A DNA stretch of 22,702 nt, taken from a virus. A program made the position numbers and the translations under genes. Below, in pieces: positions 3,623 through 22,445 of this stretch (position 1 is the stretch's first letter; each line of letters starts with the position of its first letter). The notes under the pieces were generated by a model. That model made no database searches, was not told the DNA's origin, and saw nothing but the letters and a program-made list of their open reading frames with translations. The stretch is from the IMG/VR virus record IMGVR_UViG_3300032282_001255, positions 1 to 22,702 of that record. One strand, 5' to 3'.

Positions 3623-3651
3623 ATTATAGCTCATACAGTCGTAGGTGTCAA
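3623..3651 (-). promoter_or_regulatory. Consensus sigma70-type promoter P2
   Basis: TTGACA at 3651-3646, 17-bp spacer, TATAAT at 3628-3623. Both hexamers are perfect. The -35 box includes the TGA stop (3650-3648) of the DUF5664 gene. The -10 box ends 23 bases before the SWIM-protein start, giving a leader of roughly 17 bases that holds only the ribosome site. Confidence 0.88.
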
Positions 3652-4094
3652 GACGCGATATTGCTGTGGTCGTCTGTTGCGACCTTCGCTTCGGTCCAGG
3701 TGTAGGTCTGAACGGGAACAGCTTCAGCAACAGCATTAGCCACAGCCTTTTCTGCCAACTCCTGAAACGCTTCAGAGTAGATAGTATCATGCTCATACAG
3801 GAACATGAGGCAACACATTGCGTGGGCTAGATGACCACGCCCAGTTTCACGGTCGTTTGCTTCACCCATCTTCCAGGACCAAAGATGGCGCTGAAGAGCG
3901 TCGAAGTACCTACGCTTCGCGTCGGGCACATGAATCCAGTTATCGCGCTCGTACTTTTGCGCGCCAAGAGTAAGCACGTCTACTGTAGCCATAAGAGCAT
4001 AAGCGGGAAGCAAACCATACTCCAGCTTATCACCATCGAACTTGCGCCCACCAGTCGTAGCATTCTGGGAAGCCTTTACTGCGTCATCAATCAT
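3648..4094 (-). CDS. DUF5664-type dATP/dGTP diphosphohydrolase
   Basis: A 148-residue protein. Residues about 16-105 match the DUF5664 (dGTP_diPhyd N-terminal) family: GRKFDGDKLEYGLLP, the GAQKYERDNW segment, then RHLWSWKMGEANDRETG and HLAHAMCCLMFL. These carry the conserved acidic and His residues expected of all-alpha NTP pyrophosphohydrolases. Family members in phages hydrolyse purine dNTPs to dNMP and pyrophosphate, for instance to adjust the pool in phages with modified genomes. The C-terminal 40 residues are Ala/Val/Glu-rich and unassigned. The start ATG 4094 has GGAG upstream and an ATGA overlap. Exact substrate specificity is not visible. Confidence 0.8.
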   Translation of the reverse strand: MIDDAVKASQNATTGGRKFDGDKLEYGLLPAYALMATVDVLTLGAQKYERDNWIHVPDAKRRYFDALQRHLWSWKMGEANDRETGRGHLAHAMCCLMFLYEHDTIYSEAFQELAEKAVANAVAEAVPVQTYTWTEAKVATDDHSNIAS

Positions 4095-7349: not shown

Positions 7350-7378
7350 ATTCTAGCTCGGCTAGGGCTAATTGTCAA
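7350..7378 (-). promoter_or_regulatory. Sigma70-type promoter P5 with inverted repeat
   Basis: TTGACA at 7378-7373, 17-bp spacer, TAGAAT at 7355-7350. The -35 box includes the TGA stop of the upstream gene (7377-7375) and is preceded by GGGGC. An inverted repeat, CTAGC-tcg-GCTAG (7353-7365), runs from the spacer into the -10 box and could bind a repressor. The -10 box ends 26 bases before ATG 7323. Confidence 0.85.
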
Positions 7379-7752
7379 GCCCCTTTTTCTTGCTTGACCG
7401 TTGCTTTATCTTCGTGGGTGAACTCGAACCGTAGCCCAAACGCCTTGATAACATGCTCGTGCGCCATGACGCGCAGTTCTTCAATGCTAGTCGTCTGCCC
7501 TAGGAACTTGTTGTTGTTCTTGAACCAACCATAATACAGACCGTCTTCCTTGATGATGTTGACAGGAATGAAGGCTTTATCAGCGTCATCGAAATCGAGC
7601 ATGTCGTCCGACGAAATAGATCCAACAACTTCCGGACCGTCTGGATTGATGTTAAAATATTTGCGCATGAGGAATCGTGCTACGAAAATTCCAGCCATCC
7701 AACTGGATGCTACGAGTACGATGTTGGCGAAATAGACTACGGGGTGATCCAT
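7375..7752 (-). CDS. N-terminally membrane-anchored phage protein
   Basis: A 125-residue protein. It has one membrane helix at about 5-28 followed by the basic boundary FLMRKYF, so by the positive-inside rule the C-terminal 95 residues should be cytoplasmic. The soluble part is acidic first (SSDDMLDFDDADKAF), then has a strand-turn-strand (LYYGWFKNNNKFLGQT) and a helix (IEELRVMAHEHVIKAF). ATG 7752 has AAGGA upstream. It lies directly downstream of the glycosyltransferase gene in the same operon. The function is unknown. Confidence 0.75.
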   Translation of the reverse strand: MDHPVVYFANIVLVASSWMAGIFVARFLMRKYFNINPDGPEVVGSISSDDMLDFDDADKAFIPVNIIKEDGLYYGWFKNNNKFLGQTTSIEELRVMAHEHVIKAFGLRFEFTHEDKATVKQEKGA

Positions 7753-7761
7753 GTGATTTCC

Positions 7762-8598
7762 TTATGCGAAGAACGAGTCGAGATTGCTAGTGAACTGGGA
7801 ACTCTCGTATGCCTTTTTCCACTGGATACGGACTTCCTTGCGATTTTCCATTCCCATCTTACCCCATGCACCTTCCTTCTCAACCACATCAACGAACTGC
7901 GGGAAATATCTCTGCAACTCATACGCAGCTTGCTCTTGGAGTTCCTGGTTGCGGAACGTGGAGTTACCACCAGCGGAGTTGTGATTGTAGTTGAAAAAGT
8001 ATTTATAGATGATGGCGTTCTTGAATCCCTTCGTCAGCATTGACAATGTGATCCAGTAGTCCTCATAGAGCTTGATGCTCTTGTTCTGCTGATACATCCC
8101 GTCGAAGCGAATCCCTTCGCGCTCCATCCAGTCGGTGCGAAGCCCATATGTCGCATAAGCGCGACCCACTTCCTTGATGTCCTCCTCCACGTGATTGTTT
8201 CCACCGCGAGCAGAAAAGCCGACTTGCATATACTCGTCGAGCATACTGTCGACCAAAGCATACATCCTCATCCATTCTGCTTCCTCCATCCCGTTGAACT
8301 GCTTGAGTTCTTCGTTACGCCAGCCAAACGTAGCAAGATCATCAATGAACCAGACTTTTCCTTTACCTACTTCAGGGCTATCAATGCAGCGCTGCCTAAT
8401 ATCAGCAATGCCATCGATATCAATGGGATTAGGAATAATACGGATGCTGTCAGCAATATGAGAGCGAAGCTCGGAAACCCTATCCTCTCGCGTGAAAACA
8501 TAGACGTTCTCGTGGAGCGCCTTGGGAATTTGAAAAACGGCACGTTGGCTATCCTCGCGCATGAAGGTTGTGATGATAATCTTAAGGGGTGAAGTCAT
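7762..8598 (-). CDS. TAGT-like GT-A glycosyltransferase
   Basis: A 278-residue protein with a GT-A look. It begins with a strand (LKIIITTFMRED) and has GIADIRQRCID at 63-73, KVWFIDDLATF at 81-91 with the acidic pair D86-D87 in the place of the metal-binding DxD, SARGGNN at 129-135, and an EDYWITLSMLTKGF segment at 179-192. This order matches the TET-associated glycosyltransferase (TAGT) family of phages as I know it, whose members can modify hydroxymethylated pyrimidines in DNA. Three genes upstream lies a TET/JBP oxygenase, which supports the reading. ATG 8598 has AAGGA 7 bases before it and overlaps the HAD gene by 17 bases. Donor and acceptor are not visible; another glycan or protein target is possible. 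Confidence 0.72.
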   Translation of the reverse strand: MTSPLKIIITTFMREDSQRAVFQIPKALHENVYVFTREDRVSELRSHIADSIRIIPNPIDIDGIADIRQRCIDSPEVGKGKVWFIDDLATFGWRNEELKQFNGMEEAEWMRMYALVDSMLDEYMQVGFSARGGNNHVEEDIKEVGRAYATYGLRTDWMEREGIRFDGMYQQNKSIKLYEDYWITLSMLTKGFKNAIIYKYFFNYNHNSAGGNSTFRNQELQEQAAYELQRYFPQFVDVVEKEGAWGKMGMENRKEVRIQWKKAYESSQFTSNLDSFFA

Positions 8599-8974
8599 TT
8601 TGGAATCCTTCGAGTGTCATGGCTTTATCGTCGATATACCACATGCCATATGGCTTACCGAACACGAGTTGGTCGAATGGAATTTTGTTGCGGTCAAGCC
8701 AATCTACGGTGATTTGACCGAGCTTGTTGACGCATGTCTCAATATCATTTAGCTGAGAGCGCATATGCCGCGCAGTTAGAATGGTGATATACCATCCGTT
8801 CTTATGACACTCGCGCAGCTTTTCTACGATTGGAGTGTTTGGCATAGTGGAAGCATAGCGAGTGCGTGAATCCCCGATAGATACGTCAGCGAAACTGAGC
8901 GTATCATCGAGGTCGAACACTAGGCTTTTATCAAACAAATCTGCTGTCTGCGGACGCCTTACGATACAGTGCAT
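8582..8974 (-). CDS. HAD-superfamily phosphatase
   Basis: A 130-residue HAD hydrolase with all four motifs: DLDDT at 21-25 (nucleophile D21, acid/base D23), T67 in ILTARH, K107 in GKPYG, and IDDKA at 114-118. No cap domain is present, so it is a compact, capless enzyme of the type found in sugar- or polyol-phosphate pathways of capsule loci. Here it follows a nucleotidyltransferase-kinase gene. ATG 8974 has AGGAAG 6 bases upstream, which fixes a 44-base overlap with the previous gene. Promoter P6, inside that gene, ends 41 bases upstream. It may dephosphorylate an intermediate of the same pathway. Confidence 0.85.
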   Translation of the reverse strand: MHCIVRRPQTADLFDKSLVFDLDDTLSFADVSIGDSRTRYASTMPNTPIVEKLRECHKNGWYITILTARHMRSQLNDIETCVNKLGQITVDWLDRNKIPFDQLVFGKPYGMWYIDDKAMTLEGFQNDFTP

Positions 8975-10526
8975 AGAAAACTTCCTGATTGGTCTTGTTA
9001 TGTGAATGAAGTGGTATCATACTCAAAAACAGAGACGCTGTCAAGAACAAAGTTAGACGCCAAACTTTATCACCATATTTGGCTATAAACGCAGTCTTGT
9101 AAGCTTCACGCGCAGCTTCTTTGCCAGCATCAAAGATGATGATATCTTCGCCTTTCTTGACATACAGCTCGGCGTCGATATAGTCGTAGGGATAATAGGC
9201 GGAGTGTGTAAGTTTGGCTAGGTCGTACAGAATGTTGCCATACGCATCACCACGAGGGTCGATGAGCTTTATCTGCTTGCTGCCAGGATGATAGAAAATA
9301 TTCGAGAAACAGAAATCGCCATGCGACAATGAGTCAGACCAATGAACAAGAGCTTCTTCATCTTCCTTCATTTCATCGAACTTGCGCAGAAACTCACGCG
9401 CATGGTCGAGGTCAAACTCAGGGTTCTCTTCCTCAATCATAGAGAATCGTTCCCAGTTCTTTTCAGACATCTTATTGAAGAACTGTGAATAAACACCTGG
9501 CTTATAGTAGAACCTGAACTTATCCAAGATATCAAACAGCTTAGTGTAGATTTCCGTCCAGAAGATTGGGTCAGACTCGATATACAGATAAAGCTCACGC
9601 AGCGTGGGACTATCAATACGCTCCATCGTGTATGTAGGACGTCCGCTTTCTACGCTACCATATGGTTTCTTTTCAAGGATACGCGGAGTCAGCAACTTGA
9701 TAGGAGTCGGAAGATTTTCATACCAGTTCATCTCAGCATGAATCTTAGCTGGTTGCATGATAGAAGACTTGGTGATAGTCGTTCCCTTATCAGTAGCATG
9801 AACCTGATTGAACTCGCGTGAGTTCTTAATGCCTCGATTTTCAAGATACTCTTGCAACGTACCAAAGTCTTTGATACTGATTTCCTTAATCTGAATCTCT
9901 TCCTTTGTCGTATAACGTGTCATGGCATACGAAATCTGAATCTCACCATCGCGCACGCGAGCGCTGTAGATTGATTCATGCAACGACTCACGCAAGAGCG
10001 CACCATTTGCAAAATAGTAAACTCCGCTCACGGCAAGATTCGTTGGAGGCTTTTCCTCAGGCTTATCATGAAACGCTCTGATACGATTATCATCTATTTC
10101 AGCCATGCACCAGCGATTCCAGTCAGGAACTTTCTGTACGCTAATCCAAGATACAGAACCATTCGCGAACCACATATCAGGAACTGTCTTGACGATGATA
10201 TCACTCAACAGAACAAGAACTGGCTCGTTGATAGTTTCAGGAACACCACAGTAGATAGATACGGCAGGACCACCATTTCCAATATGAACATAGTCTTCGA
10301 AACGTATCCTATCATCGTCAGGAAAATACATCTTCACAATTTCAATGATGCGATGACCCTGATGACCCGTAACGATTGTGACGATACGAGCACCAGCTTC
10401 AAGCGCGAAACGGATGTTATGAACGATGATAGGAATTTCTTGATACGGCAGGACGCACTTAGGATAGTTCTTACCGAGTTCGTTGAAACGAACGCCGAGT
10501 CCTGCCGCAGGAATCACACAATGCAT
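8931..10526 (-). CDS. Nucleotidyltransferase-kinase fusion (LicC/APH-like)
   Basis: A 531-residue two-domain protein. Residues 1-235 form a sugar-phosphate nucleotidyltransferase domain: AAGLGVRF at 7-14, PK at 22-23, and a metal-site-like LLSD at 106-109. After a linker, residues about 260-500 form an aminoglycoside/choline-kinase-type domain with HGDFCFSN at 402-409 (catalytic D404, N409) and LIDPRG at 421-426 in place of the metal-binding IDxE. One protein could thus phosphorylate a small alcohol, amine or sugar and activate a phosphate with CTP, GTP or UTP. Similar sets occur in bacterial capsule loci. AAGGAG sits 7 bases before ATG 10526. The true substrate is unknown. Confidence 0.82.
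   Translation of the reverse strand: MHCVIPAAGLGVRFNELGKNYPKCVLPYQEIPIIVHNIRFALEAGARIVTIVTGHQGHRIIEIVKMYFPDDDRIRFEDYVHIGNGGPAVSIYCGVPETINEPVLVLLSDIIVKTVPDMWFANGSVSWISVQKVPDWNRWCMAEIDDNRIRAFHDKPEEKPPTNLAVSGVYYFANGALLRESLHESIYSARVRDGEIQISYAMTRYTTKEEIQIKEISIKDFGTLQEYLENRGIKNSREFNQVHATDKGTTITKSSIMQPAKIHAEMNWYENLPTPIKLLTPRILEKKPYGSVESGRPTYTMERIDSPTLRELYLYIESDPIFWTEIYTKLFDILDKFRFYYKPGVYSQFFNKMSEKNWERFSMIEEENPEFDLDHAREFLRKFDEMKEDEEALVHWSDSLSHGDFCFSNIFYHPGSKQIKLIDPRGDAYGNILYDLAKLTHSAYYPYDYIDAELYVKKGEDIIIFDAGKEAAREAYKTAFIAKYGDKVWRLTLFLTASLFLSMIPLHSHNKTNQEVFYALYRKASADSRFV
9016..9044 (-). promoter_or_regulatory. Sigma70-type promoter P6
   Basis: TTGACA at 9044-9039, 17-bp spacer, TATGAT at 9021-9016. 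It lies inside the 3' end of the nucleotidyltransferase-kinase gene, and its -10 box ends 41 bases before the HAD start. It would give the HAD, glycosyltransferase and membrane-anchored genes separate expression. Confidence 0.82.
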
Positions 10527-10540
10527 ATTATATCTCCTTC

Positions 10541-11926
10541 TTAGAAAGTTTGCTCGAGACCCATCTTATTTAGAACCTCGTTCGCCTCTGCTAAGAATCC
10601 ATTATGACCAAGATAATTCGCCCACTCTTCTGTATCCCACATGCTAGGGGATACGCCGTTCCAACTTTCGTGCCACAACGGATGCTCTTTGTTATCGCGA
10701 CGCATATACACGAACTCGCGACGACATTCTTCATACTTACGCGAACCACAGCTGAGCATCGACTCACGGAAATACATAACCACGCTCATACGCTCGAAAC
10801 CTTCTTCGTAGTCGAACGCAGGTGAATTGCTGTGAATGCGATGAGCATTCATCATAATCAAGTCTCCAGCACGAATATCAGCAGCAACCCTAAACTCGGG
10901 AAAACATAGATAGAATCCCTGATATTGCTTACCATTATCAAGAACAAGCAGATTACTAAAGCCACGTGGATTATTTGCCGTTTCATAGCTCTCACACAAA
11001 TCACCAACGTCTCTATGAGCAGCAGTACGGAAATCGCGATTGATAGTTAGAGTCGTATAGACTGTGTTACCGATACGCCAATCTTCACCGAGTTGCTCCA
11101 TAGCTGCCGCTTGACCAGCCCAACGATTAGGAACTTCACGCTTGAATACTTCATTAGCAGCTTCGAACAGAGCAATAGACGCTTCGTACTTATCCTTATG
11201 ATTCGCTTGCCATCCAGTCTCACGACAGAAAGGAATACGAGGATATCTATCCATGAAACCGCCAACACCTGAACGCACACCATTAGCATACGTTGTGTCA
11301 GAAATCATATCGAACAGAACATGATGAGCTGCTTGACGACGCTCGTTCGCATCCTTAGTAGAAACATCAGCATACCATTTGTCGAAGTCAAAGTCAAGAG
11401 TCTTATTGACAATCCAGATAGCGCCCGCACGAACGTCGCCTCTATCTTTGTTTCCACCAGCACCACGACCTTGCAGCGGAGTATCTGGCGTCTTATCGTA
11501 GATATCTTGTAACATATCTTGGTCGTCGATTGAACGAGGTGAACCTTGAGCAAGATATTGTAGAACTGCCTTTTCACGTTCAGTCACCCAACGACGAGAA
11601 CCTTCACCGTCAGGCAATTTCTGAAAAGCAGTATCGCGTTCAGCTCCAGCAGCTAGACCACGATTATCAGACATCATAGCACCACTACGCAAATGCGTGT
11701 AGGCTGCATCAGTCATTTCTTTAGGAAACACATTCTTGCGGAACTTGCATAGCAAATTCTTTTCGCTATGCTCTTCACCCATCAGAATCTGCAATGGCGT
11801 CAATGGTTCGTAGACGTCTGTGTCTTCAGTAAGAACTAGGTCATAACAATCATGGTCTAGAAATTTGCCTAGCGTATAATTGAGTTCGTTCAGCTGTGAA
11901 TGCTCGAGATAAATTTGCTTTACCAT
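10541..11926 (-). CDS. TET/JBP-family 2OG-Fe(II) dioxygenase
   Basis: A 461-residue protein whose residues about 285-395 match the Tet_JBP domain: TVYTTLTINRDFRTAAHRD with iron ligands H304 and D306, the GFSNLLVLDNG segment, GFYLCFPEFRVAADIRAGD, then MMNAHRIHSNSP with the distal ligand H365, and R379 (ERMSVVMYFRE) placed to bind 2-oxoglutarate. TET/JBP enzymes oxidise the methyl group of thymine or 5-methylcytosine in DNA; phage members take part in base hypermodification. The N-terminal 280 residues are not assigned and might hold a DNA-binding part. AAGGAG lies 5 bases before ATG 11926. It is flanked by a CST-I-like protein and the nucleotidyltransferase-kinase gene. Confidence 0.82.
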   Translation of the reverse strand: MVKQIYLEHSQLNELNYTLGKFLDHDCYDLVLTEDTDVYEPLTPLQILMGEEHSEKNLLCKFRKNVFPKEMTDAAYTHLRSGAMMSDNRGLAAGAERDTAFQKLPDGEGSRRWVTEREKAVLQYLAQGSPRSIDDQDMLQDIYDKTPDTPLQGRGAGGNKDRGDVRAGAIWIVNKTLDFDFDKWYADVSTKDANERRQAAHHVLFDMISDTTYANGVRSGVGGFMDRYPRIPFCRETGWQANHKDKYEASIALFEAANEVFKREVPNRWAGQAAAMEQLGEDWRIGNTVYTTLTINRDFRTAAHRDVGDLCESYETANNPRGFSNLLVLDNGKQYQGFYLCFPEFRVAADIRAGDLIMMNAHRIHSNSPAFDYEEGFERMSVVMYFRESMLSCGSRKYEECRREFVYMRRDNKEHPLWHESWNGVSPSMWDTEEWANYLGHNGFLAEANEVLNKMGLEQTF

Positions 11927-11955
11927 GATAACTCCTTCTTCTAAATTCTACAGGC

Positions 11956-12534
11956 CTATGTATGCTTTAGAAGATTCTCATAAGTGTTGATAAACACATT
12001 TTTACCATATACTGGATTAAGTGTCAAGTCATTTGGGAAAATAAAAATGAAATCTACCTCAGGATGCTGATTGACTAGCCACTGAACATAACGAATACGC
12101 CCAGGATTGTCATTCGCGCTCGCGCGAGTTTCCATACCGTAGTTATTTGAGCCATGATAGATATTGGACACAGACTTATTAGCATCGCTAATCATAAAGT
12201 CAAAGCCGATACAAATCAGCTGGTCGAAATCCATCTTGATTGCTTCGCGCATAGCATTGACGCCAGCATTACTACGCGGGCGTCCAGGATTACATGAAGC
12301 TGGTTCCCAGCGCTCATCGATCGGCGGAAAGATAACACGTTTCGAAGGAAAATCAGAACCTTCGATTTCTGTCATGATACCATCGTCAATAGCAACAAGA
12401 TAATCAGGAATAGAGTGATCAGGAAAATCTCGATAGAGCGCATTGCATCCAAAGATAGTCCCGTAAGGTTTCAGCCTCGTGAGGTCAAACGACTTACGAG
12501 ACGTACCATTGCCGATGATAAACCCTGTATTCAT
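11956..12534 (-). CDS. CST-I/DUF115-like putative glycosyltransferase
   Basis: A 192-residue Rossmann-like protein. It begins with IIGNGTSRKSFDLTRLK (residues 6-22) and GCNALYRDF (29-37), as in the GNGPS...L...RCN opening of GT42 sialyltransferases and the DUF115/MptE-like group. Later it has SNAGVNAMREAI and LICIGFDFMI, matching the middle of that fold, and an NIYHGSNNYG segment. Such proteins are common in phages, where they are usually unannotated. It may transfer a sugar or bind a nucleotide; the catalytic residues are not proven. Start in an ATGA overlap (ATG 12534). As a direct neighbour of the TET gene it could be part of the modification locus. Confidence 0.6.
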   Translation of the reverse strand: MNTGFIIGNGTSRKSFDLTRLKPYGTIFGCNALYRDFPDHSIPDYLVAIDDGIMTEIEGSDFPSKRVIFPPIDERWEPASCNPGRPRSNAGVNAMREAIKMDFDQLICIGFDFMISDANKSVSNIYHGSNNYGMETRASANDNPGRIRYVQWLVNQHPEVDFIFIFPNDLTLNPVYGKNVFINTYENLLKHT

Positions 12535-16685: not shown

Positions 16686-17672
16686 CTATTTCTTGTCGCC
16701 AAGAGACAGCAAGAAATCTTTCCATTGCGTCGCGCGCATATCCCAGTTGTAGAAGGTATCGAAATAGCCTTTCTGGAAACTGATACGCCTCTGATTGAAA
16801 TCTGCCCAGTATTCCTTGATAACCATACCCAAGACGCCAGCAAAAATATTGGCGTGCTGATTGTTATCTTCAGTCCAGCCATACATCACAGCAAAGTTGG
16901 CGCAAGTCTCAGGAAGCGCAGCGAAACTCGGACAAACCACATTACAACCAGCGCTCATAGCTTCAATCACTGAAATACCAGAAGTCTCAGGCCAGATGCT
17001 AGGATAGGCGTAGATATGCGCTTTCTTCAAAGCTTCACGAATAACGCTATTCGGTTGCCATCCATGATAGGTCATGTTAGGATGATTGCGAACTCGTTCG
17101 AAAAGAGGTTCATAAGGTTCGTCGCGAGCAGGCCAACCATAGATACCGAACGAAGAATAGACATCAAGATGAAATTCTACGCCTTGCTTAGCTAGGAATT
17201 CACAGACCGGAATAAGAAGTTCCAATCCGCGATGAGGTGTCGTGTGATAGATAATATTGATTATGCCTTTAGGCTTTTCATGTTCCTCGATAGGAACAAT
17301 AGCATTAGGCATAACAATTCCCTTGGAATATGGGACATCAAGAGCCAAGTTATATGTTGATTGCTGATAGTTCGAAACGAACACAAGCTTTTCAAAACGA
17401 TCTAGCGAAGCCTTTTTCTTAAGATGCTCAGACTCAGGATCATCCCACGTATCATGCAACCAAAGGATATTGCGCTTACTAGTATCTACCTCGCGCACGC
17501 GTGAACAGATAAGATTGAACTTATCCAAAAGTGCTGCTGGTACTCGCTGCTTGAGGCCAGCAACCATTTGCTCTGTTCCACCCTGTGAACCGATATGCTC
17601 ATAGGTTCCATTTGTAGCAGGATCAATAGAGGGAGCAGCAGATTCTTTGATTCCAGTGATATTCAGTTTCAT
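16686..17672 (-). CDS. GT4-family glycosyltransferase
   Basis: A 328-residue GT-B-type glycosyltransferase of family GT4. Early GGTEQMVAGL (31-40) is the usual glycine-rich N-domain motif. The C-terminal domain has IYHTTPHRGLELL (141-153) and the EX7E motif at E229 and E237 (PETSGISVIEAMSAGCNVV), which binds the nucleotide-sugar donor. Members are retaining enzymes acting on glycans, lipids or proteins. ATG 17672 has GGAG 6 bases upstream and lies one base after the stop of the exported binding protein. The frame stays open a few codons upstream, but without support. A role in virion, cell-surface or DNA glycosylation cannot be told apart here. Confidence 0.88.
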   Translation of the reverse strand: MKLNITGIKESAAPSIDPATNGTYEHIGSQGGTEQMVAGLKQRVPAALLDKFNLICSRVREVDTSKRNILWLHDTWDDPESEHLKKKASLDRFEKLVFVSNYQQSTYNLALDVPYSKGIVMPNAIVPIEEHEKPKGIINIIYHTTPHRGLELLIPVCEFLAKQGVEFHLDVYSSFGIYGWPARDEPYEPLFERVRNHPNMTYHGWQPNSVIREALKKAHIYAYPSIWPETSGISVIEAMSAGCNVVCPSFAALPETCANFAVMYGWTEDNNQHANIFAGVLGMVIKEYWADFNQRRISFQKGYFDTFYNWDMRATQWKDFLLSLGDKK

Positions 17673-17673
17673 G

Positions 17674-18576
17674 TTATTCTCCAGATAAGACAATCATCTT
17701 ATATTCATTGTCGATAGATGTTCTGATATTTGTTTCATTGAAGCAAGCGATTCTTTTACCGAATTTATTTTCATCAGCGCAAATTGTTTCAACATACGTT
17801 TTGAATTCTTTAGCGAATTCGGGTTGGTTCTTGTATACAGAAAAGAATGTGCTAGATTCGATGAACATACCTTCGATGTTCTTTTCTTTGGTTGTTGGAA
17901 TATTAGAATAAGATTCTAATCTCTTATCACTGACTGTCGCTAAAGGCTTTAGTGAAGGCATGTCTGGCATACTAAACACAGTAAAATCTGCCTCGCCACG
18001 AGTAACAGAAGCGAGAATATCGCCAATCGGACCATACTTTAACAGAGTCAGGTTGTCTAACTTATAGTGCTTCTTAAATTGATTGATAAGATATATATTG
18101 GTACGAGCATTCACATTAGAAGCGACAAAAGCTTCTTTCTTGTTTCGTATCGACTCAACCAATTCTTCAACCGAATTGAACGGTGAATCTGGTCGTACGA
18201 AAATAGCGGCAGGAAAGCTAAACAACCCCCCAGCGAAAACGAAATCATTTTCATCCCAATTTCGCTTACTGCCATTTTCAATCTTACCGAAAGTGAAATC
18301 GCTTATAGAAGAAACCATCAGAATCTTAGTTCCTGATCTAGCTTTCTGTAGTCCCAATGCATAGGCAGCTTCGCCTCCAGCTCCAGGAATATTAGAATAC
18401 CTGAACTGATACTTATTCTGAACTTTATTCAGCGCATCGGTTGCATTGATGATATCTCGCCCCATATAGGAAGCGGGAGAAAATCTGGTAACAACTTCGA
18501 TTTGTTCTTGAGCATTTGCCGTATTCATAGTCACCACCATTCCCATGATCATAAGGATTCTATATAAAGTTTTCAT
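17674..18576 (-). CDS. Exported TctC/Bug-like solute-binding protein
   Basis: A 300-residue protein with a clear signal peptide (basic MKTLYR, hydrophobic core, cleavage likely after MNTANA at residue 22). The mature part resembles TctC/Bug receptors of tripartite tricarboxylate transporters: VVTRFSPASYMGRDI, SNIPGAGGEAAYALGLQKA, a central ...IFVRPDSPFNSVEELVESI, and a late YGPIGDILASVTRGEADFTV. Such proteins bind carboxylates or other small molecules in the periplasm and hand them to membrane partners, which are absent here. It is unusual for a phage and probably a host-derived auxiliary gene. Its ligand is unknown. It starts in a TAATG overlap. Confidence 0.75.
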   Translation of the reverse strand: MKTLYRILMIMGMVVTMNTANAQEQIEVVTRFSPASYMGRDIINATDALNKVQNKYQFRYSNIPGAGGEAAYALGLQKARSGTKILMVSSISDFTFGKIENGSKRNWDENDFVFAGGLFSFPAAIFVRPDSPFNSVEELVESIRNKKEAFVASNVNARTNIYLINQFKKHYKLDNLTLLKYGPIGDILASVTRGEADFTVFSMPDMPSLKPLATVSDKRLESYSNIPTTKEKNIEGMFIESSTFFSVYKNQPEFAKEFKTYVETICADENKFGKRIACFNETNIRTSIDNEYKMIVLSGE

Positions 18577-19528: not shown

Positions 19529-20122
19529 TCAGCTCATTTCGACCCAGCCAGTCATGATGTATTTCGTATTGCTGATTGGCGGATTGCCACGATGAGTATG
19601 CGTAAAGCCAGCCGGCCAAAGAATGAGTCTGCCTTGTTTGGCTTTGACACGTTTCGGGTAATACAGAAACTCGGTTTCACCGCCTTCATCAACGTCATTC
19701 AGATACAGAATGAAAGTGAGTACACGGCGCATCAGATTTGGGTCGCCGTCTTCACAGTGCCAAACGTGATATCCGCCACCCACCTCTGTTTTCTGTGTCT
19801 TAGTTAATCTTATTGACATGTGTGCAATACCAGAATTGAGGATACCATATTCTTCTGAATATATGGGATACACCGTAGACCAGAAACGTTCATTGAACAT
19901 TTTAGAAGGAGCCATATCAGATACGTCTAATTCCATACCAGAAAGAACATCGGAGAAATAGAATTGATCGTCTTTCTTAACAGTCGAATTAGCGCCTTCT
20001 TTTTGACGACTCATAGTGAATCCAGCTCTATCCATCCGATTGAACGAATCGATGAATGACTGACATTCTTGGGCTGTAAACAAATTGTCGTATTGAAGAA
20101 CGAAATTTTCGATAGTCATCAT
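19529..20122 (-). CDS. Prolyl-4-hydroxylase-like 2OG-Fe(II) oxygenase
   Basis: A 197-residue enzyme of the P4H-like 2-oxoglutarate oxygenase group. The iron site is H122-x-E124 (GGYHVWHCEDG, with Glu rather than the more common Asp) and distal H175 (AGFTHTHRGNPP). K187 (NTKYIMTGW) is placed to bind 2-oxoglutarate. The RRVLTFILYLNDVDEGGETEF core is strongly conserved in phage members. These hydroxylate protein side chains or other substrates; the phage targets are generally unknown. Tandem ATGs overlap the upstream stop (ATG 20122). Confidence 0.9.
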   Translation of the reverse strand: MMTIENFVLQYDNLFTAQECQSFIDSFNRMDRAGFTMSRQKEGANSTVKKDDQFYFSDVLSGMELDVSDMAPSKMFNERFWSTVYPIYSEEYGILNSGIAHMSIRLTKTQKTEVGGGYHVWHCEDGDPNLMRRVLTFILYLNDVDEGGETEFLYYPKRVKAKQGRLILWPAGFTHTHRGNPPISNTKYIMTGWVEMS

Positions 20123-20592: not shown

Positions 20593-21778
20593 GACAGATA
20601 TTACCTATAAAGTGATGTTTTGATGTTATTATCTTATTCAGATATCGAGGAGGAATCTTCGAATATTTTTTTAAGATATTCCTATTCCATTCATTAGCAG
20701 AATCTGCTAAGAACGTTTTGCCTGTGAGGGCATTTGCTAGAGTGATTTCTGGTTTAGCTATGCCTATTTTAGGCAAATTAATTTTGTTCCAATATGCGTA
20801 TATGAATTTGCATAATTCTCTTTCGAAGAACGGATTCACTCCTCCGTATTTTTTACCGACGCTTATCTTTTTACTCGATTCATTGTCGGTATATTTTTTG
20901 TAGAAAACAAGATCAGTTTCTAAAGCTCTTTTCAGAACGTGAGATTGTTTGATAGGAATCAGCGGTGCATCTTTTGACCAGAAGAATTCTTCGTTGGTGA
21001 AAATGCGATCGATGAATTTATCGTTGTGCATCTTCGAATTATAATAGCACCAATCACCAAAGAAAAAGTAGAATTTATTATCCACAATTGTTGTCTGTGG
21101 TTTTTCGTTCCCTGATATGAAAGCCACTTTATTGTTTTTGGTTAAAGCAGGTTCATTGTGTAATAGATTACTCAATTGAGTCCAGGGATATGTCATTGTA
21201 GGGCAGTTAGTGAGAACAGTTCTTGGATTTAGATTTTCTGGGCTGACTCCTTTCGTAGCAGAATGCTTCATGAAGTCGTCCGATATATCATACACGCTTA
21301 TTTTAGTATTTGGGCTTTTCTGTTTGATATATTCTAGCTCAGGAATAACACTCAAACGGAACTCCAAAAAGTGAGCTAGACTTTTATCCGCATATAGTGT
21401 CGTTTCATCAATCTTCGATATAGCCTTTTCGTAATTAACGACTTGTACTTCATCTAAGAAAATTCCGTTTTCTATGAATGTATGTAACACCTCCATAGAA
21501 TCGCTGCCACCAGAAAATGCAAGAATAAGATAATCATACGATTCACGCAACTGCTGCGCGCGCATACGGTACAGTTGCGGCAACGAAAACGGAGGTTCTA
21601 TTGTCCAATCAATGTCATTGAAAATATGATCATTGAAATAGAATCTTATCAAACCGCTGAAATCGTTCTCAATGTACATACGGTCGAAGATATCCATGCG
21701 ATTAACATAGGCATCATTCTTATACAAATAGAACCCGTTATGAAGTTCTGGCGAACTGGCTTTAGAAATGATTTTCAA
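20579..21778 (-). CDS. PP-loop ATP pyrophosphatase
   Basis: A 399-residue protein with a PP-loop, SGGSDS at 89-94 (YLILAFSGGSDSMEVLHTF), as in asparagine synthetase, QueC and related enzymes that adenylate a carboxyl or carbonyl group. N-terminal residues 1-75 do not look like a class II glutaminase domain, so an ammonia source would have to come from elsewhere. The gene is visibly richer in A and T than the rest of the window, suggesting recent acquisition. The start is TTG 21778, which shares bases with the stop of the upstream oxygenase gene. The substrate is unknown. It is sandwiched between oxygenase genes. Confidence 0.8.
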   Translation of the reverse strand: MKIISKASSPELHNGFYLYKNDAYVNRMDIFDRMYIENDFSGLIRFYFNDHIFNDIDWTIEPPFSLPQLYRMRAQQLRESYDYLILAFSGGSDSMEVLHTFIENGIFLDEVQVVNYEKAISKIDETTLYADKSLAHFLEFRLSVIPELEYIKQKSPNTKISVYDISDDFMKHSATKGVSPENLNPRTVLTNCPTMTYPWTQLSNLLHNEPALTKNNKVAFISGNEKPQTTIVDNKFYFFFGDWCYYNSKMHNDKFIDRIFTNEEFFWSKDAPLIPIKQSHVLKRALETDLVFYKKYTDNESSKKISVGKKYGGVNPFFERELCKFIYAYWNKINLPKIGIAKPEITLANALTGKTFLADSANEWNRNILKKYSKIPPRYLNKIITSKHHFIGNICHERV

Positions 21779-22353
21779 TATCGGTACAACTCTTCCTTGA
21801 GGTGAACATTACCTGCTAGTGCTATTCTGTTTTTGTCGCTCTTATTCACATTGATAGAATGCAATAGCCATCCAGGAAATAGTATCATGTTACCATTCTT
21901 GGGGTGAAACTCGTGAAGATTAAACTGTTTCATCTGATCAGGATGAACCCAACCTAATCCGCTTCTGGGATCTAAGAATTGTAATCCGCCAGTCAGTTCA
22001 TCCACGCTGACGTAATAAACGAAAGCAATGGACGTTTGTCTGTGGTTATGAAAATGAACAGGATAATTGGGGTGATGTACATTCAACCATGCTTTCTTCA
22101 AATCAAAATCGCTGGCTGATAATTGTAGATCAAATATGTCGTTTACATAAGAGGCGCAATTTTCTAATACAGTATTGCATATCACGTCTATGGCATTTAT
22201 TTGACCACGATGATCTAATAGATTTTTGCCAGAACGCGATCCGTTCGCATTATGCTCTGAGTCGAAATTAGCTAGAATTTCTTTGTTGATTTCTTCATGA
22301 TTAGGAACGTCAAACACATGTACGTGCGTGGGGAACAAGACCATCTTTTGCAT
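21775..22353 (-). CDS. Putative 2OG-Fe(II) oxygenase (PF13759-like)
   Basis: A 192-residue oxygenase of the double-stranded beta-helix fold common in T4-like phages. Core features: NVHHPNYPVHFHNHRQTS, with H102 and H104 as candidate iron ligands, GGLQFLDPR, then GNMILFPGWLLHSINVN with distal H165, and R176 (DKNRIALAGN) placed to bind 2-oxoglutarate. The reaction is probably a hydroxylation, with the substrate unknown. ATG 22353 has GAGG 7 bases upstream; the frame's upstream codons lack a ribosome site and run towards the tRNA. Confidence 0.85.
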   Translation of the reverse strand: MQKMVLFPTHVHVFDVPNHEEINKEILANFDSEHNANGSRSGKNLLDHRGQINAIDVICNTVLENCASYVNDIFDLQLSASDFDLKKAWLNVHHPNYPVHFHNHRQTSIAFVYYVSVDELTGGLQFLDPRSGLGWVHPDQMKQFNLHEFHPKNGNMILFPGWLLHSINVNKSDKNRIALAGNVHLKEELYRY

Positions 22354-22371
22354 AATATATCCTCTAAATAA

Positions 22372-22445
22372 TGGCACCGGTACTAGGAGTCGAACCCAGG
22401 CTTTTAGTTTTGGAGACCAACGTGCTACCGTAACACTTTACCGAT
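22372..22445 (-). tRNA. tRNA-Trp (CCA)
   Basis: A 74-base cloverleaf with encoded CCA. The acceptor pairs ATCGGTA with TACCGGT (one T-G pair). The anticodon stem TTGGT/ACTAA holds the loop CTCCAAA, so the anticodon is CCA for tryptophan. The T arm is CTGGG-TTCGACT-CCTAG. Position 8, nearly always T, is A here, and the acceptor and T stems contain wobble pairs, which might mean a diverged but functional tRNA. It lies 13 bases from tRNA-Ser and just before the oxygenase gene. Confidence 0.88.

Follow-up and report, generated by a model that had tools for sequence, protein, structure and literature searches.

The window analyzed here is a 22,702-base viral fragment from IMG/VR (record IMGVR_UViG_3300032282_001255). 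At 7762-12534 it carries five minus-strand genes that probably provide for post-replicative hypermodification of DNA bases: a TET oxygenase would oxidize a base, phage-encoded enzymes would make a nucleoside diphosphate (NDP)-sugar, and a TAGT-like transferase with a putative sliding-clamp-binding tail would attach the sugar. The genes, their motifs, their conserved order, the exchange of the cassette among related loci and the co-variation of tails with DNA polymerase were all observed. A preliminary description of this DNA had proposed that the phage oxidizes a base, makes an activated donor and attaches it. That core was supported by the exchange of cassettes behind a constant TET, by the donor-making gene pair standing beside thymidylate-synthase-fold enzymes and GT-B transferases, by homology to RB69 proteins, and by the restriction resistance reported for the DNA of phage DLP6; neither the exchange of cassettes nor the clamp-type tail had been noticed.

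According to the mechanism we propose, TET would convert a 5-methylpyrimidine in the phage DNA to a 5-hydroxymethylpyrimidine. The substrate is most likely 5-methylcytosine, which a C5-methyltransferase with its gene in another part of the phage genome would supply; thymine is also possible. The HAD phosphatase, the APH-type kinase and the nucleotidyltransferase would take a host sugar phosphate by way of the sugar and the sugar-1-phosphate to the NDP-sugar, and the TAGT-like enzyme would move the sugar onto the hydroxymethyl group. A clamp-binding tail common to this transferase and the phage's own polymerase may keep it at the replication fork, and the likely benefit would be protection from restriction and related defenses. 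With this scheme, the decoration of freshly replicated phage DNA gets an explanation that can be tested directly, in which the modifiers may ride the polymerase's clamp.

The five genes were all located with unchanged coordinates (Table 1), and those for the nucleotidyltransferase-kinase, the HAD phosphatase and the TAGT-like protein overlap end to start. T4 RNase H and MazG among the neighboring genes in the window point to a T4-like phage. In a Pfam profile search, the 461-amino-acid (aa) protein matched Tet_JBP (PF12851) with E=8.7e-14 and 51.5 bits (cut-off 34.9), and its match to phrog_24024 was 1.7e-101. The iron triad HxD...H, formed by H304, D306 and H365, and the 2-oxoglutarate (2OG)-binding R379 are invariant in 12 homologues, down to 27% identity, which confirmed the Tet_JBP domain and the ligands proposed for it. 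The label "CST-I/DUF115-like" given to the 192-aa upstream neighbor held up less well: a CST-II sialyltransferase was among the weak fold matches of its predicted model (TMq 0.48, prob 0.80; mean pLDDT 77), but the fold search gave no match at E<=0.001, no Pfam match was detected, and the corresponding PHROG has no assigned function.

The 278-aa protein had been called a TAGT-like GT-A protein. It matched phrog_842 (beta-glucosyl-HMC-alpha-glucosyltransferase) with 7.6e-41, it carries the acidic GT-A metal/nucleotide motif IDD, of which D86/D87 are invariant in 17 aligned proteins, and it aligned with Pfam TAGT (PF20691) over positions 2-203 of 205, but with E=1.6e-4 and 22.1 bits, under Pfam's own cut-off of 27.5. 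The TAGT of a sister cassette scored 52.3 bits against the same profile, above the cut-off. When the window-type and sister-type proteins were compared profile to profile, with shallow alignments, the probability was only 27%, so their homology rests on the Pfam and PHROG matches that they have in common. A 2026 study treated the beta-glucosyl-HMC-alpha-glucosyltransferase of T6 as a PF20691/TAGT protein of GT-A fold (PMC13216743).

A nucleotidyltransferase-kinase fusion and a HAD phosphatase between TET and TAGT were also borne out. The 531-aa protein matched NTP_transferase (PF00483) with 1.9e-9, and its C-terminal half matched the APH-like kinase family PF01636 with E=0.0043, under the cut-off; the motifs GLGVRF, HGDFCFSN (HGDxxxxN) and IDPRG are intact. 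In the predicted model of this protein the C-terminal half, with a mean pLDDT of 57, was unreliable and was left out of the fold search. The 130-aa protein has the HAD motifs DxDxT/TAR/DD and matched PDB 1xpj with 1.9e-15 and TIGR01689, the capsule-phosphatase subfamily EcbF/BcbF, with 3.4e-16, the latter under the cut-off.

Cassette exchange and related systems

We compared 26 IMG/VR loci with close TET relatives, some of the contigs being near-duplicates. TET was followed by the nucleotidyltransferase-kinase gene in 18 of them and then, contig permitting, by the HAD gene, the TAGT-like gene and a constant 125-aa gene; since this order is kept in 18 metagenomic loci, we do not attribute the arrangement to chance. 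In six further loci, a GalE-like epimerase was accompanied by one TAGT or two between TET and the 125-aa gene (one of these loci ended before the TAGTs), and a single locus had in that place a 255-aa protein without family match, an ADDT-like protein and a P-loop kinase. ADDT is an amino acid:DNA transferase. The assignment in that locus was made by similarity to the ADDT of Cr30, and its homologues in another locus, L231, gave a weak ADDT match and a match to P-loop nucleotide kinase 3 above the cut-off. Where the loci were long enough to show it, the 125-aa gene came after cassette A, B or C. The cassette types require two changes on the TET tree, and a single origin of each type is disfavored, but not by fully supported branches. 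The combination of TET and TAGT with a donor module as one exchangeable cassette is new here; phage TET with TAGT and phage-made sugar donors for DNA were already known individually. Phages that form a natural series differing only in the decoration cassette could show which ornament beats which bacterial defense, and could also yield DNA-modifying enzymes and donors not yet described.

In L231 (3416-9774), TET, TAGT, HAD, nucleotidyltransferase-kinase, ADDT-like, P-loop kinase and a second TAGT-like gene were found in one phage, four of them coding for the tail described below. Further ornaments are hinted at by genes near TET in two other phages, a UDP-galactopyranose mutase in C48C1 (L030 7899-11346) and, in Cr30 (L029 10994-14441), an ADDT and a TAGT-like protein together with a gene annotated as inositol-1-phosphate synthase.

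A profile search with the nucleotidyltransferase-kinase found 52 viral loci. Outside the window's group, the gene was mainly accompanied either by TET and TAGT (part of L220-L232, L238, L239) or by a GT-B-like transferase and an enzyme of thymidylate-synthase fold (part of L211-L217, L229, L241 and Enterococcus phage 9183). One of the loci, L215, additionally has dCMP-deaminase-like and C5-methyltransferase genes. In bacteria the nucleotidyltransferase-kinase adjoins the same HAD phosphatase in 77 of 80 loci, surrounded by polysaccharide genes of capsule and lipopolysaccharide (LPS) type (WavE, GT1, GT2, flippases, NeuB), and because of this neighborhood the pair looks like a sugar-activation unit acquired from surface-glycan synthesis. 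On a contig from a clostridial metagenome-assembled genome (L179 8001-11034), a kinase, a HAD and two TAGT-like genes stand in a row; this could be a prophage or a bacterial cluster.

The preliminary description knew of no described T4-like system with this gene set. The set is in fact present, under wrong or no names, in two other phages, of which DLP6 is an isolate. Stenotrophomonas phage DLP6, which is T4-like, has the same four enzymes side by side (TET 40%, nucleotidyltransferase-kinase 33%, HAD 39% and TAGT 44% identity); it differs from the window in gene order, in that no C5-methyltransferase was found, and in having tails on both TET and TAGT. DLP6 DNA was assayed with 18 restriction enzymes (PMC5349666) and is listed as restriction-resistant in a review (PMC8228603). 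Synechococcus phage S-CBWM1 has the same enzymes in another order, with the nucleotidyltransferase and the kinase unfused. In DLP6 (L028; AAY80_029, AAY80_030), TET is likely misannotated as an SNF2 DNA repair protein and the nucleotidyltransferase-kinase as ModA; likewise, the HAD phosphatase RB69p051 (L276 709-1095) is annotated as a phosphoheptose isomerase. Wrongly annotated genes can thus be relabeled.

Several known systems resemble the window in part. Phages are reportedly known, from work by Iyer in 2013 and Burke in 2021, to combine TET, a C5-methyltransferase and a transferase. The window is like these TET/JBP systems in its TET and TAGT-type transferase (PF20691), and in the methyltransferase of its nearest near-complete relatives, but differs in having, within the same gene run, a module predicted to make its own nucleotide-sugar donor, as well as exchangeable cassettes, polymerase-type tails and a T4-like genome. 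The bacterial MupP-AmgK-MurU sugar salvage pathway, which serves cell-wall recycling, offers an analogy for the proposed donor route, with a HAD phosphatase, an APH-type anomeric kinase and a nucleotidyltransferase acting in series. In the RB69/Mosigvirus arabinosylation cluster, RB69 has distant homologues of the donor enzymes (HAD 25%, 9e-9; kinase 28%, 3e-6; the nucleotidyltransferase half weakly, E=0.007, in the same gene as the kinase). The DNA of RB69 is arabinosylated, and its authors proposed the nucleotidyltransferase-kinase gene for UDP-arabinose synthesis; unlike in the scheme proposed for the window, however, phages of RB69 type add arabinose to 5-hydroxy-dC that arises while still a free nucleotide (PMC13390438), the transferase is GT-B-like, and no TET occurs in the described pathway. 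T-even glucosylation of 5-hydroxymethylcytosine (gp42, alpha-glucosyltransferase, beta-glucosyltransferase, T6 TAGT) uses a 5-hydroxymethyl handle, as proposed here, and the T6 TAGT belongs to the same PHROG/Pfam family; T4 differs in relying on host UDP-glucose and a nucleotide-level hydroxymethylase, and its alpha-glucosyltransferase lacks a gp43-like tail.

Polymerase-type C-terminal tails

The window's TAGT-like protein ends in SNLDSFFA, and many TETs of related loci end in similar peptides (e.g. SLEDFFA). These ends are like those of the gp43 DNA polymerases of relatives (SLEDFFS in G001, TLEDFF in G002, TLDSFFA in DLP6); the window, a fragment, does not include a polymerase gene. The type also resembles the ends of T4 gp43 (SLDFLFG) and gp55 (SLDFLYE), through which these proteins bind gp45, the sliding clamp. 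Within the window, TAGT was the sole likely gene with such a tail. Across the loci, and with near-duplicates included, the tail was found in 32 of 37 TAGTs, 25 of 44 TETs and 12 of 921 other open reading frames (ORFs), and in none of the HAD (0/44), nucleotidyltransferase-kinase (0/44), epimerase (0/5) or thymidylate-synthase-like (0/8) proteins.

Whole-record scans gave the same picture. The FF tail occurred only in the polymerase, TET and TAGT of G032 (57 ORFs), and only in the polymerase, a GT-B transferase and a C5-methyltransferase of G027 (135 ORFs). In G028 (L257-L267) and G038 (L274-L275), the GT-B transferase and the methyltransferase had acidic-W tails rather than FF, and their polymerases, looked up after the modifier tails had been seen, end in LDDW/IDDW in place of LEDFF, a change that the GT-B transferase shares. 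Acidic-W tails were confined to the polymerase, the GT-B transferase and the methyltransferase in G038, and these three made up three of the four carriers in G028. The chance of picking both modifiers was 5e-5 to 1e-3 per record, with a product of ~4e-15, which overstates the case because the first genomes had served in part to shape the regular expressions and because spurious ORFs are among those counted. The switching of tail type together with the polymerase is a stronger argument than this product.

The likeness of the TAGT tail to the polymerase clamp tail suggests that the DNA may be decorated as it is replicated. A possible precedent for such tethering is T4 alpha-glucosyltransferase, which binds gp45 in vitro, whereas beta-glucosyltransferase does not; the interaction does not set the alpha/beta proportions (PMC13216743). 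We lean toward the view that T4-like phages run a replisome-tethered decoration line, in which TET, TAGT, the GT-B transferase, some methyltransferases and ADDT-like enzymes copy the clamp peptide of their own polymerase and co-evolve with it, and in which the ornament changes when the donor/transferase cassette behind a constant TET is swapped. Polymerase-type tails restricted to DNA-acting modifiers are new here: we found no description of them in the literature searched, in which subscription journals were poorly covered.

Acceptor base, donor and alternative explanations

G001 and G002, the near-complete genomes most closely related to the window, each carry one C5-methyltransferase gene with intact motifs, and neither has a PF00303 enzyme (thymidylate synthase/dCMP hydroxymethylase); for these reasons 5-methylcytosine is favored as the base on which TET acts. 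Characterized phage TETs are said, after Burke in 2021, to act on this base. The methyltransferase check called for in the preliminary description came out divided, however, since PF00145 C5-methyltransferases were absent by profile and protein search from four complete TET phages, DLP6, Cr30, C48C1 and S-CBWM1. Oxidation of thymine, already a 5-methylpyrimidine, is therefore a live alternative: a JBP-like TET would produce 5-hydroxymethyluracil, TAGT would glycosylate it, and a base-J-like genome would arise without a methyltransferase. Given the intact methyltransferase genes of the closest relatives, we regard this as unlikely for the window. An N4/N6 methyltransferase was considered as the substrate-maker in TET phages without a C5 enzyme and was absent. 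Dinucleotide odds, in which a methylation footprint was sought, showed that neither CpG nor GpC is depleted in the window, in G001 and G002, or in DLP6.

The donor might instead be a nucleotide-activated alcohol or amine, similar to CDP-choline, and the group placed on DNA would then not be a sugar. LicA/LicC-type kinase-nucleotidyltransferase pairs do make CDP-choline, and a CTP:phosphocholine cytidylyltransferase (1jyk) was among the structural matches; nevertheless, the sugar-1-phosphate nucleotidyltransferases RmlA/GalU were better matches, the bacterial relatives lie within capsule/LPS genes, the RB69 homologues serve a phage with arabinosylated DNA, and TAGT is a glycosyltransferase family, so that a non-sugar donor appears improbable. 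Still harder to sustain, and in our judgment very improbable, is the idea that the donor and transferase genes decorate a host surface polysaccharide or a virion protein, with TET an unrelated neighbor. The HAD and nucleotidyltransferase-kinase genes do derive from bacterial surface-polysaccharide clusters, and such genes do occur in phage genomes, but the polymerase-type tail is on the transferases and not on the donor enzymes, the transferase belongs to a DNA-glucosyltransferase family, the donor pair recurs with thymidylate-synthase-fold enzymes or TET in unrelated phages, and the exchanged cassettes include an ADDT-like DNA-modification gene with a homologue in L231. As to the tails, they could be a coincidence or some other sorting signal. 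That the window TET and many relatives lack a tail, that T4 alpha-glucosyltransferase binds gp45 without one, and that the expressions were partly shaped on the first genomes would fit this explanation, which seems to us improbable in view of the match to T4 gp43 and gp55 and of modifier tails that track the change of the polymerase from LEDFF to LDDW/IDDW.

Several points weigh against the hypermodification cassette with a clamp-tethered TAGT that we prefer. Each chemical step, the sugar nature of the donor, clamp binding and the role in defense are predictions. The Pfam score of the window's TAGT-like protein lies under the cut-off, and a PDB profile search for the kinase substrate returned weak APH-like matches only. 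The four complete TET phages named above lack a C5-methyltransferase, a 155-kb record has a methyltransferase without TET, and the 22.7-kb window itself contains no methyltransferase gene. The window TET ends in GLEQTF, without a tail, and only gp43 and gp55 serve to calibrate the tail motif, because T4 alpha-glucosyltransferase binds gp45 with no such tail. Finally, of 14 records searched, RB69 alone had an arabinose-5-phosphate (SIS) isomerase, the 13 others giving none; for this reason we do not class the window as an arabinosylation system, and its sugar probably differs from that of RB69 or is drawn from the host pool.

Features and other genes of the window

Table 1. Positions in the window of the proposed modification genes and associated features
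Feature	Coordinates	Strand	Basis or remark
Conserved protein, 192 aa	11956..12534	-	Adjoins TET in this phage group whatever cassette comes after; Rossmann-like
TET/JBP-family 2OG/Fe(II) DNA oxygenase, 461 aa	10541..11926	-	PF12851 above cut-off; invariant ligands
Codons of putative iron ligands H304-x-D306	11009..11017	-	Homologue alignment
Codon of putative iron ligand H365	10832..10834	-	Homologue alignment
RmlA/GalU-like nucleotidyltransferase + APH-like small-molecule kinase fusion, 531 aa (predicted donor synthesis)	8931..10526	-	PF00483, PF01636, motifs
HAD phosphatase, EcbF/BcbF-like, 130 aa (predicted donor synthesis)	8582..8974	-	TIGR01689, PDB 1xpj, HAD motifs
TAGT-like GT-A transferase, 278 aa (predicted to attach donor to DNA)	7762..8598	-	phrog_842, PF20691, D86/D87
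Putative sliding-clamp-binding, polymerase-like C-terminal tail SNLDSFFA of TAGT-like protein	7765..7788	-	gp43-type tail
125-aa protein, N-terminal hydrophobic stretch	7375..7752	-	Constant boundary of exchangeable cassette; not claimed as a modification enzyme

Other minus-strand genes of the window may be mentioned. A dATP/dGTP diphosphohydrolase (3648-4094; PF18909, 1.9e-30) belongs to a family known from 2-aminoadenine phages; the Z genome that this might suggest was considered and rejected, since a PurZ-type protein (PF00709) was absent in ten related records. Two more 2OG-Fe(II) oxygenases are encoded at 19529-20122 and 21775-22377, on either side of genes for an RNase H-like protein and for a 399-aa protein that matched a PP-loop family weakly and no PHROG. 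At 17674-18576 lies the gene for a periplasmic solute-binding protein of TctC type (PF03401, 9.3e-6, slightly under the cut-off) that apparently has a signal peptide. The gene at 16686-17693 codes for a GT4-type glycosyltransferase that is 70-81% identical in sister loci and is not tied to the exchangeable cassette; its relatives occur in DLP6 (49%), Cr30 and the Sinorhizobium phages phiM12/phiN3.

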